Origin: Verrucomicrobiota bacterium
GTDB taxonomy: Bacteria > Verrucomicrobiota > Verrucomicrobiia > Opitutales > UBA953
Length of the DNA stretch: 64,000 nucleotides
Direction: 5' to 3'
Assembly (NCBI GenBank): GCA_016871415.1
Contig: VHDL01000001.1
Span: forward strand, 124,001 to 188,000
Part shown: positions 39,801 to 44,564 of the stretch, piece after piece
Position numbering within the stretch: position 1 is the stretch's first letter
Layout: every line of letters starts with the position of its first letter
The notes under the pieces: model-generated
The model's database searches: none
Told to the model about the DNA's origin: nothing
Seen by the model: the letters and a program-made list of their open reading frames with translations, nothing else
Position numbers and translations under genes: made by a program

Positions 39801-39931
39801 GGGGACAGGGACAGGGGCAGGGACAGGGACAGGGGCAGGAGAGGCAGGGCATGTCTGTCATTTGACGGACACGACATCTGTGCTCCTGCCCTACATAACT
39901 GTCCCTGTCCCCGCCCCTGCCCCTGTCCCTG
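39801..39931. repeat. Long inverted repeat made of GGGACA/GGGGCA units
   Basis: The left arm (39801-39840) is a run of alternating GGGACA and GGGGCA hexamers, and the right arm (39900-39931) is the complementary run of TGTCCC and TGCCCC. Between them GTCTGTCA and TGACGGAC form an inner stem (one mismatch or G-U), and CAGGGC pairs with GCTCCTG-type sequence. The element fills most of the 217-base gap between the suf operon end and the PQQ-type gene. It could be a terminator-like or REP-like element. Confidence 0.65.
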
Positions 39932-39939
39932 ATAAGACC

Positions 39940-40572
39940 TCAGATTAACCCGAGCTGCATCTTGCCGTCCTCGGAGATCATGGACTGGGTCCAGGGCGGA
40001 TCCCACACGATGCCCACGCGGGCTTCGTTGACGCCGGGCACGTTGAGCACGCGGTTGCGCGCGTCCTCGGCGATGACGGGGCCCATGCCGCATCCGGGAG
40101 CGGTGAGGGTCATGGCCACGATGACGCGATAGCGGTCCTCCGAGCCGTCGATGGGCTCGAGCATCATCGAATAGACGAGACCGAGGTCGACGATGTTCAC
40201 GGGAATCTCCGGATCGAAGACCTTCTTCAGCTGATTCCAGACGGCTTCCTCGGAGGGACGGCCCTTGTGGCCGGGGTGTTCGGCCGTGCCGGTGGATCCG
40301 TAGGCGTCGGTCTTGCCCTCGGCGTCGGCGCCCTCGGCGGGCGGCTGCTCGCCTAAGGAGTCGGCATCGGCTCCCTTGATGCGGAACATGCCGCTGTCGC
40401 AGACGACGGTGAAGTTGCCGCCGAGGCGATGGGTGATGGTCACACGCGCGCCCGCGGGCAGCACGGCCGGCTCACCGGCAGGGATGACGGTTGCCTGCAC
40501 GTCGCGCGTCAAGTTGCGGTCATGGGGTCCGGGGGCGTGCCTCTGTCTGGTGGTGTCTTCGCTCATGGTCAT
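39940..40572 (-). CDS. sufT: Fe-S cluster assembly protein SufT
   Basis: The 210-residue protein has the SufT N-terminal half [20 protein letters not shown] and [12 protein letters not shown], a linker (about 85-105), and a DUF59/MIP18 domain with [18 protein letters not shown] and [17 protein letters not shown]. It helps iron-sulfur cluster maturation or transfer. Its ATG overlaps the sufD stop (TGATG), a second in-frame ATG is at 40566, and it closes the suf operon. Confidence 0.92.
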
Positions 40573-41885
40573 CAGGAATGGAACTTGGCGCGCAGCATGC
40601 CGCGCACGGCGTCGGCGGCTCCGGCGTCGCCGATGCGGGTCAGGACCTCCTCGAGGAAGCCCTGGGCGAGGAGTTCCTGCGCGGCGGCCAGCGGGATACC
40701 GCGGGCGAGCAGGTAGAAGAGCTCCTCGGGGCTGATCTGTCCGGTCGTGGCTCCGTGCGAGCACTTCACGTCGTTGGCCTCAATCTCCAAGCCGGGCAGG
40801 GAGTCGGCCTCGGCCTCGGGCGACAGCAGCAGGTTGCGGTTGGTCTGGTAGGCGTCGGTGCGCTGCGCACCCGGCTCGACCTTGATCAGGCCGGAGAACA
40901 CCGTGCGGGCCCGGTCGAGCAATGCGTTCTTGAAAAGGAGGTCGGAACGCGCGCCCGGCGCGGCGTGCACCTGCAGGGTGCGCTGGTCGAACTCCTGCTC
41001 GCCGGTGGCCACCGTGATGCCGAGCAGGCGCACGTCGGCGCCTTCGCCCTGGAGGCGCACCACGTTCTCGAGGCGTGCGCGTCGTGCGCCCACGGCCGCG
41101 TTGACCGAGGTCACTTCGGCGGCGGCCTCGGCGGTCACGGTGTCGATCTCGAAGGACTGGGCCGCGGAGCCCCAGTTCTGCACGGAGAGGCGTTCAATCT
41201 TGGCGCCGGGTCCGGCGTGCAGGTCGGTGGCGGAGACGGACAGGGTCCGCAGGTCCGGCTGGGCGCCGAGGCGCCATTCATGGACGGCGGCCCGGGCGCG
41301 GGCCCCGACGCGGATGAGGGCGTGCGGGAAAGACGCCGAGCCTTCGGCCAGGGCCCAGTGCACGACGGAGAGGGGCTTGGTGAGTTCGACGTCATCGGGT
41401 ACGTGTAGCACGTAGCCCGACCCGAACCAGGCGCGCTGCAGGGCCAGCATCTTCGCGCCGCCGAGCAGGGCGGGGTGACGCAGGGCCTCGTCGCGCAGCA
41501 GCTCGGGGCGCTCACGGACCACGTCCTCAATGGGTGCGAAGACCACGCCCGCCTTGACGAGGACAGCGGAGAGCGCGGGGTGGGAGACGCAGTGTCCGTC
41601 GACGAAGACGAGCGTCGCCTCGGCGTCAGCCGTCAGCGCGGAGCCGCGCACGAGGCGCGAGGCGTCGGCCGTCGACGGCGCGCCGGCCGGCGCGAAGCCG
41701 TCGAGGGAGAGCGAACGGACGTCGGAGAACCTCCAGCGCTCGTCGTCGCGTCCGGGCATGGGTAGCGAGGCGAAGGCCTCCCGGCCGGCCCGACGGATAT
41801 CGGCGAGCGTCGCCGGGCCCTTACCGCCGTGGGCCGACTGCAGGGCGTTGTCGGTGACCCCGGCGGCCGCGACGGGCGCGCTCAT
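40572..41885 (-). CDS. sufD: Fe-S cluster assembly protein SufD
   Basis: The 437-residue protein has the SufBD beta-helix core with [39 protein letters not shown] and [19 protein letters not shown], the last being the C-terminal block with conserved Cys and His. The N terminus has [16 protein letters not shown]. SufD forms the SufBC2D scaffold complex. Start ATG 41885 overlaps the sufB stop by ATGA. The longer frame to 42158 is inside sufB and is not used. Confidence 0.94.
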
Positions 41886-43312
41886 CCGACCGACCCTTCC
41901 ATCTGCAGCTCGATGAGGCGCTTGAGCTCCACGGAATACTCCATGGGGAACTCCTTCACCAGGTCGTTGACGAATCCGTTGACGGCGAGGGACATCGCCT
42001 CGCCCTCGGTCAGGCCGCGCTGCATCATGTAGAAGATCTGCTCGGCCGAGACCTTGGAGACGCTCGCCTCGTGCTGGACCGAATTCTTGCGGCCGCGCAC
42101 GGAGATGGCCGGGTAGGTGTCGGTGCGGCTGCGCTCGTTGATGAGCAGGGCGTCGCACTCCGTGTTGTTACGGCAGTTGCGCAGCGTGCGGGGGATGTGG
42201 ACCAGGCCGCGGTAGGTGGAGCGTCCTTCGCCCACCGAGATCGACTTCGCGATGATGTTGGACGTCGTGTCGTCCGCCGCGTGGATCATCTTGGCCCCCG
42301 TGTCCTGGTGCTGGCCGACATTGGCCAGGGCGATGGAGAGCACCTCGCCGCGGGCGCGCTTGCCGCGCAGCACCACGCCGGGATACTTCATGGTGAGGCG
42401 TGAGCCGATGTTGCAGTCGATCCAGCGGACCTCGGCGTCCTCCTCGGCCACCCCGCGCTTGGTCACGAGGTTGAAGACGTTGGAGGACCAGTTCTGGACG
42501 GTGACATACTGAATCTTGGCGCCCTTGAGGGCGACCAGTTCGACGACGGCCGAGTGCAGGGTCGCCGTCTCGAACTTGGGGGCCGTGCAGCCTTCCATGT
42601 AGGTGACTTCTGAGCCTTCGTCGGCGATGATGAGCGTGCGCTCGAACTGCCCGAAGTTCTGGGCGTTGATGCGGAAGTAGGCCTGCAGGGGCTGGGCCAC
42701 CTTCACGCCCTTGGGCACGTAGATGAACGAACCGCCGGAGAATACGGCCGAGTTGAGCGCGGCGAACTTGTTGTCGCCGGCGGGAATGACCTTGCCGAAC
42801 CAGCGGCGGAAAATCTCGGCGTGGTCGCGCAGCCCCTCGGTGGGGCCGCAGAAGATGACGCCCTGCTTCTCGAGCTCCTCCTTCATGCGGGAGTACGAGG
42901 CCTCGGAATCGAACTGCGCCTCGACGCCGGCGAGGAACTTGCGCTCGGCCTCGGGGATGCCCAAGCGCTCGAAGGTGCGCTTCACGTCGTCGGGGACCTC
43001 CTCCCAGGTGCGGCTGGCCTTCTGCCCCTTGGCGAGGTAGTAGCGGATCTCTTGGAAGTGGATGTTGTCGAGGTCGTTCGTGGCCCAGTGCGTGGGCATG
43101 GGCATCGATTCGAAGACCCCGAGGGAGCGGTGGCGGAACTCGCGCACCCACTCGGGTTCGCCCTTCACCTTGGAGATGTAGTCGACGACGCCGGGATTGA
43201 GCCCGACGCCCGCGTCGTAGGCGTAGTTCTCCTCATACTTGAAGTCGCCTTTAGAGCGGTCGACGTCGATCGCCTCCCGCTGAGCCCGCTCGTCCTGGTT
43301 GAAGTCAGCCAT
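41882..43312 (-). CDS. sufB: Fe-S cluster assembly protein SufB
   Basis: The 476-residue scaffold subunit has the family blocks [68 protein letters not shown], and the C-terminal [18 protein letters not shown] with [18 protein letters not shown]. It receives sulfur and builds the cluster with SufC and SufD. The sulfur donors SufS/SufE or SufU are not in the window. Its start is four bases after sufC, and it overlaps sufD. Confidence 0.97.
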
Positions 43313-43316
43313 GGCC

Positions 43317-44075
43317 TCAGGCGTGGGCGAGCTCCTTCTTGACCCAGTCGTAGCCCTTCTCCTCGAGCTCCAGGGCGAGCTCCTTGCCGCCGCTGTGCAC
43401 GATTTGCCCGTCCCACATGATGTGCACGCGATCGGGCACGATGTGGTCCAAGAGGCGCTGGTAGTGGGTGATGACGAGGAAGCCGGTGTCGGGACCGCGC
43501 ATGGCGTTCACGCCCTCGGACACGATGCGCAGCGCGTCGATGTCGAGGCCGGAGTCGGTCTCGTCGAGCACGGCGTAGCGGGGCTTGAGCATCATGAGCT
43601 GGAGGATCTCGCAGCGCTTCTTCTCGCCGCCGGAGAAGCCCTCGTTCACGAACCGGGAGGTGAACTTCCGGTCCATCTTGAGGGCGTCCATCTTGGCGTA
43701 GAGCTCGGCGTAGTAGGCCTTGGCGTCGAAGGGCGCGCCCTTGGCCTGGCGCGCGACGAGCGCGGCGCGGATGAAGTTGGCGATGGTGACGCCGGGGATT
43801 TCGCTCGGATACTGGAAGGCGAGGAAGAGGCCTGCGCGGGCGACGACGTCAGGCTCGAGGCCGAGGATGGGCTGTCCGTCGACGAGGGCGTCGCCGGACT
43901 GCACGACGTAGTCGGGGTGGCCGGCCAGCACCTTGGCGAGGGTGCTCTTGCCGGTGCCGTTGGGCCCCATGATGGCGTGCACCTCGCCCTTCGGGACGGT
44001 GAGGCTGAAGTTCTTGAGGATCGGACGTTCTCCGACGGAGGCGTGGAGGTTCCGGATGACGAGTGAGTCGGGCAT
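43317..44075 (-). CDS. sufC: Fe-S cluster assembly ATPase SufC
   Basis: The 252-residue ABC ATPase has Walker [21 protein letters not shown], the SufC-specific [14 protein letters not shown] signature, Walker [18 protein letters not shown] and the H-loop [10 protein letters not shown]. It drives conformational change of the SufBCD complex. It lies 11 bases after the Fur-like regulator gene and four bases before sufB. Confidence 0.97.
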
Positions 44076-44086
44076 GGAATGGGTTC

Positions 44087-44533
44087 TCAGTTGGCGTGGC
44101 CGTCCTTGGCCTGGGTGCGTCCGTGGAAGCTGATCTCGATGGTTTCGGAATCGAAGCCGGGCGGCAGAATGGAACGCAGGCTGCTCAGCACCTCGGGCGG
44201 GAGGTCGATGTCGTGCACGCGTCCGGTCGCCTTGTCGCGGAAGTGCGCGTGCGGCGCCAGGTTCGGGCAGTAGCGGGTGGATTCGCGCTCGTGGTTCACC
44301 TGACGCACGAGGCCGCAGCCCACGAAGGTCTCGAGGCAGTTGTAGACCGTCGCTAGGGACAGCCCGGGCATGGCCTCGCGGGCCCGGTTGTAGACTTCGT
44401 CCACGGACGGGTGGTCGCGCTTGGAGAGGAGCACTTTGAACACGGTTTCGCGCTGGGGGGTCACCTTCTGGCCGCTTCGGCTGAGGGCTTCCTGCAGGTG
44501 GGAGAGGTCGGCTTCGCTGAGATTTTGATTCAT
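44087..44533 (-). CDS. Fur/PerR-family regulator without CxxC zinc motifs
   Basis: The 148-residue protein has the Fur winged-helix DNA-binding part with [20 protein letters not shown] and [20 protein letters not shown], then the sensing half with [20 protein letters not shown]. The usual CxxC after HxH (as in HLICLDCG) is replaced by FRDKATG, and no second CxxC is at the C terminus, so the structural zinc site is absent. The His/Asp regulatory-metal ligands seem present. This is reminiscent of Irr-type or minimal PerR proteins. It is the first gene of the suf operon and has a dyad operator upstream, so it probably controls the operon and itself. Confidence 0.9.
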
Positions 44534-44549
44534 TCTAAGTGTGAAAGAG

Positions 44550-44564
44550 TTAGAATGACTCTAA
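44550..44564. promoter_or_regulatory. PerR/Fur-like operator before the fur-suf operon
   Basis: TTAGAAT-G-ACTCTAA is a 7-1-7 dyad with one mismatch and closely resembles the PerR box TTATAAT-N-ATTATAA. A further inverted half-site ATTCTAA lies at 44532-44538, overlapping the regulator's start codon. The site is 17 bases before the ATG at 44533, a position suited to autorepression. Confidence 0.6.

Follow-up and report, generated by a model that had tools for sequence, protein, structure and literature searches.

The locus described here raises two questions: whether a Fur-family gene at the head of a suf operon encodes a regulator of that operon and, if so, which signal such a regulator would read. 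The control of SUF in Verrucomicrobiota appears to be undescribed in the literature searched, and our searches returned no earlier report of a fur-suf linkage. The features considered are listed below; the window is the whole 64-kb stretch of DNA that was analyzed, and coordinates refer to it.

39940..40572, minus strand, sufT (TIGR03406, 207.6 bits against a cut-off of 202.6)
40572..41885, minus strand, sufD (TIGR01981, 239 bits)
41882..43312, minus strand, sufB (TIGR01980, 630 bits)
43317..44075, minus strand, sufC (TIGR01978, 335 bits)
44087..44533, minus strand, Fur-family regulator (fur), PerR-type, 148 aa, no CxxC (Pfam FUR, 77.7 bits)
44524..44538, minus strand, second operator (predicted) over the start codon, TTAGAATGAATCAAA, 2 mismatches, degraded in this genome
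44550..44564, minus strand, proximal operator (predicted), a 7-1-7 dyad reading TTAGAGTCATTCTAA on the gene strand, 1 mismatch to TTRGAATNATTCYAA
44569..44571, minus strand, −35-like element (its TTG), ending 7 nt before the proximal dyad

The matches of sufC, sufB, sufD and sufT all exceed the NCBIfam cut-offs, and the five genes are located on the same strand; the first two gaps measure 11 and 4 nt, and the remaining genes overlap. As read from the sequence, the sufT start codon (ATG, 40572-40570) shares 1 nt with the sufD stop. The first position that the first-pass annotation had assigned to the regulator in fur-sufC-sufB-sufD-sufT is thus confirmed. The region 3′ of sufT (window positions 39801-39931) contains an inverted pair of (GGGACA/GGGGCA)n arrays with 33-nt arms that are 91% complementary, 60 nt between them and a G-quadruplex-like spacing of GGG; this motif occurs at dozens of sites of the genome (74 + 67 matches with at most one mismatch). 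CCCTAC-like runs are found 5′ of fur in congeners.

The encoded protein belongs to the Fur superfamily, its Pfam FUR score of 77.7 bits being well above the cut-off of 23.1, and has the Fur-family fold: the top PDB matches of its AlphaFold2 model (mean pLDDT 85) are Fur and PerR structures (E 1e-11). The nearest solved sequences are the PerR proteins of Bacillus subtilis (2fe3; the closest), Campylobacter jejuni (6dk4) and Leptospira (5nl9). The top NCBIfam model is also a PerR; its 84 bits fall short of the cut-off of 180, and none of the NCBIfam PerR models reached its cut-off. One CxxC position reads FRDKATG and the C-terminal CxxC is absent as well, in agreement with the earlier description of a Fur-family regulator without structural zinc cysteines. 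The protein contains exactly three cysteines, C66, C73 and C89, and the putative metal site comprises H41, C89, H95, H97 and D108.

The phylogeny that had been proposed for the regulator was run, and places it on the PerR side. All suf-linked proteins form a single clade, set off by a branch with support 97/96; the Fur and Zur references, FurB included, fall outside it, Fur and Zur lying beyond a branch with support 99/96. Because several reference branches are long, the exact sister of the clade is unsure. When aligned to PerR, residues H41, H95, H97 and D108 correspond to H37, H91, H93 and D104, and C89 corresponds to D85; four of the five regulatory ligands listed for PerR (H37, D85, H91, H93 and D104; PMC4866751) are therefore kept, and the spacing from H41 to the HxH motif is also that of PerR. 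The residues that separate PerR from Fur are an Asn of the recognition helix and the Asp at position 104 (PMC8638851). Both are present in the suf-linked clade, as N65 and D108, and together with H41 and H97 they are invariant in 117/117 members. The likeness to PerR of B. subtilis, Streptococcus and Leptospira hence extends over fold, sequence neighborhood, diagnostic residues and four ligand positions; the difference is the Cys in place of Asp85. That position is C in 113 of the 117 members, E in three and D in one, and the absence of any replacement other than E or D suits a mononuclear metal ligand. The earlier suggestion that the three cysteines are cluster or redox ligands stands in part, since C89 occupies a regulatory ligand position of PerR, but C66 and C73 are less strictly kept.

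Both CxxC motifs are retained in six suf-linked proteins of Verrucomicrobiales (L148, L151 and L156-L159) and in two of Opitutales (L102 and L106), corresponding to families f33, f35 and f36 and to two members of f24. As sister lineages retain both motifs, the loss of CxxC is most simply secondary. The regulator does not have the structural Zn(Cys)4 site of PerR, a site that is not strictly defining for PerR, because the PerR of Leptospira is also devoid of CxxC. The weight that had been implied for the missing motif is not borne out, and CxxC loss was discarded as the key novelty in view of these CxxC-keeping relatives and of the Leptospira protein.

The ortholog survey consisted of an order-wide protein search in Opitutales and then of fetched loci, to which the Verrucomicrobiales loci L147-L163 were added. 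Orthologs with 41-100% identity were found in most Opitutales genomes of ordinary size; the same search found none in a set of 0.8-1.3 Mb genomes. Among the fetched loci, a same-strand sufC follows every ortholog above 40% identity for which downstream sequence is available (the contig of L046 ends too early to show the linkage), and the Verrucomicrobiales loci present the same arrangement. When a named genome collection was scanned, sufC was located at most 600 nt from fur in 76 of 76 loci with room for it. The relatives that carry names belong to Opitutales and Opitutae. The matches of genus g4 (L050-L053; 27-35% identity) were rejected as orthologs: they are unlinked to suf, and the three placed in the tree fall outside the clade. 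At two loci, L054 2846-3267 (genome G030) and L116 2618-3047 (genome G092), fur is split into two frames with an intact sufC downstream, which may reflect assembly errors or decay. The fur-suf arrangement is real and extends far beyond the window, across Opitutales and Verrucomicrobiales. The first-pass annotation had named absence of the dyad and of the linkage from relatives as evidence that would speak against its proposal; the linkage exists at all orthologous loci with room, and the dyad is kept.

In the window, the proximal dyad (TTAGAATGACTCTAA, 44550-44564) is located 16 nt 5′ of the fur ATG. The upstream dyad had thus been correctly noticed, but what had been taken for a further half-site over the start codon is a full dyad in most congeners (TTAGAATGATTCAAA or the form ending in GAA, 1 mismatch), 26-27 nt from the proximal one; in the genus of the window it reads TTAGA-ATG-ATTCAAA, overlapping the ATG, and it is weaker in the window's own genome. 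The pattern TTRGAATnATTCYAA, with at most two mismatches, has only two matches in the 64-kb window, both at the fur promoter, against 0.03 expected, and 0/100 shuffles of the window reached two matches. A generic promoter scan found no sigma-70 consensus promoter. In the whole genome of the window, the only match with one mismatch is the suf operator; the other two matches, at C1:71266 and C5:82211 with 2 mismatches, do not rise above what the control pattern gives, and a wide regulon in this genome was accordingly rejected.

Comparison of the suf promoters of relatives, also proposed earlier, shows that the dyad is conserved. The best site has at most one mismatch in 91/101 Opitutales promoters, against 0.25 expected in dinucleotide shuffles, and two sites with at most three mismatches each are present in 59/101. 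Paired dyads lie about 26-29 nt apart, the commonest spacings being 27 nt (31 cases) and 29 nt (14 cases). In 65 of 92 promoters the proximal dyad is preceded by a TTG at a distance of precisely 7 nt, and this fixed offset suggests that the dyad probably lies within the promoter spacer. The 7-1-7 palindrome resembles the PerR box TTATAATnATTATAA, from which it differs in having G/C at half-site position 4 (TTAGAAT vs TTATAAT); G occupies this position in 98 of the 100 sites aligned. The Verrucomicrobiales form of the site, TTAGAATnATTCTTG, appears to be fused with a −35-like TTG, and in Akkermansia-like host-associated genomes (L147 and L160-L163) the dyads are degenerate while the fur-suf linkage is kept.

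The perfect sequence TTGGAATnATTCCAA occurs at 11 places in 105 genomes, eight of them at the fur-suf promoter, compared with 0 for the control; a wider form of the operator gave 109 sites in 199 genomes (summed from the table), compared with 3 for the reversed control. Judged by such motif counts, the predicted operator is almost confined to the fur-suf promoter in each genome. Extra sites, each conserved within single families, include those before sufS at seven loci of one family. No operator site was found at sufS of the window's genome, and sufS lacks a site in most others; co-regulation of sufS was therefore rejected as a general rule, and both this and the dyad decay in L147 and L160-L163 are counted against the mechanism proposed below. 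The dyad also precedes genes for P1B-type ATPases with SPC and HEGST motifs at six loci, which would be putative P1B-4 metal exporters, and a TonB-dependent receptor gene in one genome (G166).

Further occurrences were recorded as separate observations. An exact dyad is located about 140-280 nt upstream of RpoD-like sigma factor genes in five genomes (L169 and L172-L175), and an exact suf-type dyad lies at or just before the start of a gene for a small PEP-CTERM protein at four loci of family f20 (L176-L178 and L180), being 25-27 nt before the start in three of them. In G124 and G178, perfect palindromes that fall within murD-like ORFs (ORF type read from the sequence) were dismissed as coding coincidences.

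Linkage need not imply regulation, as the dyad might be only autoregulatory and the suf genes mainly transcribed from another promoter. The decay of the dyad under preserved linkage in the Akkermansia-like genomes agrees with this, as do the intergenic gaps and insertions that separate fur, sufC and sufB in some genomes; the tight packing of the genes in the window and the presence of the dyad before the unlinked sufS genes disagree with it, and we consider it very improbable. Dedicated regulation of SUF by an operon-borne Fur-family protein is, on comparative grounds, well supported: linkage and the predicted own operator are conserved across relatives, as expected for a SufR-like role, and these same two observations sustain the earlier claim that the SUF operon has a Fur-like protein of its own and a PerR-like box. 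Were this protein a plain Fur-like repressor devoid of peroxide sensing, Fe(II) would be its co-repressor and iron starvation would derepress SUF, much as E. coli SUF is repressed by Fur and induced by iron starvation (PMC11001641). The dyad before the TonB-dependent receptor gene of G166 would fit such a role, but Asn65 and Asp108 are of PerR type in all members, not the Arg and Glu of Fur, and sites before putative P1B-4 exporters misfit an iron co-repressor; this reading seems unlikely. Haem sensing, through the Cys-Pro pair C89-P90 beside HxH, or zinc sensing, through a Zur-like Cys at the D85 position, is quite improbable. The predicted targets concern SUF and putative metal export and do not include zinc uptake; the equivalent of His37, absent in Zur (PMC4866751), is invariant in the suf-linked clade, outside which the Zur and FurB references fall; and the Pro is often Ala while the Cys is kept, even though Cys-Pro is present in most members (92/100 in Opitutales and 11/17 in Verrucomicrobiales) and the corresponding ligand of Zur is a Cys (PMC4866751).

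An Fe-S cluster bound by C66, C73 and C89 (with C100 in some lineages) could also make the protein a repressor, as in SufR and IscR. Its dedication to a cluster-assembly operon would suit this, and the cysteines are well kept: C66 is present in 97/100 and C89 in 96/100 Opitutales members, and in the set thinned to 70% identity 38/41 proteins retain at least three Cys among positions 66, 73, 89 and 100, the variance of the Cys count being below that of column shuffles (p = 0.0024, in a shuffle that ignores phylogeny). The one clear Rrf2-type protein of the genome (L307 1471-1935) has no cysteine, so the genome has no obvious cluster sensor of the IscR/RirA type, and E. coli Fur is reported with a bound [2Fe-2S] cluster (PMC11001641). 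Nevertheless, C89 is exchanged for E or D and C73 for S, T, A or H, and pairwise compensation tests among the four Cys positions of the thinned set gave no significance. Because no cysteine is invariant while the His and Asp of the mononuclear site (H41, H97 and D108) are, the metal site is favored as the sensor, and a repressor holding a cluster on these cysteines is doubtful. The wider notion that the Fur-fold protein reads cluster status through either a cluster or an Fe site (Cys89 with C66/C73/C100), as a private feedback switch of SUF, has a small though appreciable chance; if true, it would mean that Verrucomicrobiota arrived independently at the SufR/IscR logic, using a PerR scaffold.

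The mechanism that we prefer, and regard as reasonably probable, is that of a PerR-type, Fe(II)-dependent and self-repressing repressor acting mainly on its own operon (fur-sufCBDT) and released by iron loss or oxidant. The metal-loaded dimer would bind both operators, which would cover the promoter spacer and, in the genus of the window, the start codon, and would block its own promoter, resulting in negative autoregulation. Fe(II) would be the co-repressor metal, and the Cys89 ligand perhaps disfavors Mn(II); an analogy with DtxR vs MntR suggests that a Cys ligand might prefer Fe to Mn. The repressor would be released when iron is lost or when peroxide oxidizes the iron site, so that SUF would be made during iron shortage or while clusters are being destroyed. 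The oxidant-responsive reading is favored over a pure iron co-repressor because of the PerR-type Asp108 and of the P1B-type ATPases as predicted co-targets; derepression of the B. subtilis iron exporter PfeT by H2O2 through PerR is described in PMC9993123. Repression of suf by Streptococcus mutans PerR, whose co-factor is Fe2+, provides a precedent; the finding that PerR does not explain the oxidant induction of suf in that organism counts against the proposal (PMC11631912). A Cys in place of D85 sets the regulator apart from known PerR proteins and is characteristic of Zur (PMC4866751), so its metal and its response to peroxide could be different.

The regulator can be placed among known systems. 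Whereas PerR has a peroxide regulon, the target with the best support here is the regulator's own suf operon. SufR of Mycobacterium (Rv1460) and of cyanobacteria is likewise a repressor encoded by the first gene of a suf operon (PMC6034842), but it belongs to a separate protein family and carries Fe-S clusters, whereas the protein described here has the Fur fold. S. mutans PerR (PMC11631912) and E. coli Fur (PMC11001641) are Fur-family proteins that act on suf; they are global and encoded elsewhere, in contrast to this operon-bound and, as predicted, nearly single-target regulator. With Zur it shares the Cys donor at the D85-equivalent position (PMC4866751), and it is set apart from Zur by the invariant H41, by the PerR spacing to HxH and by its separate clade. 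IscR, RirA and RisR control Fe-S assembly genes, as this regulator would, but they have the Rrf2 fold.

The analysis provides a precisely defined predicted operator, together with a protein clade and a short list of predicted targets. From the genomes compared, cluster building in one large group of Verrucomicrobiota seems to be under private iron- or oxidant-sensing control, by a PerR-type regulator in which one metal ligand is replaced by Cys and the DNA site is shifted, and which would have become restricted to a single operon. For the question of how Fur-family proteins select metals and operators, the clade represents a natural experiment.
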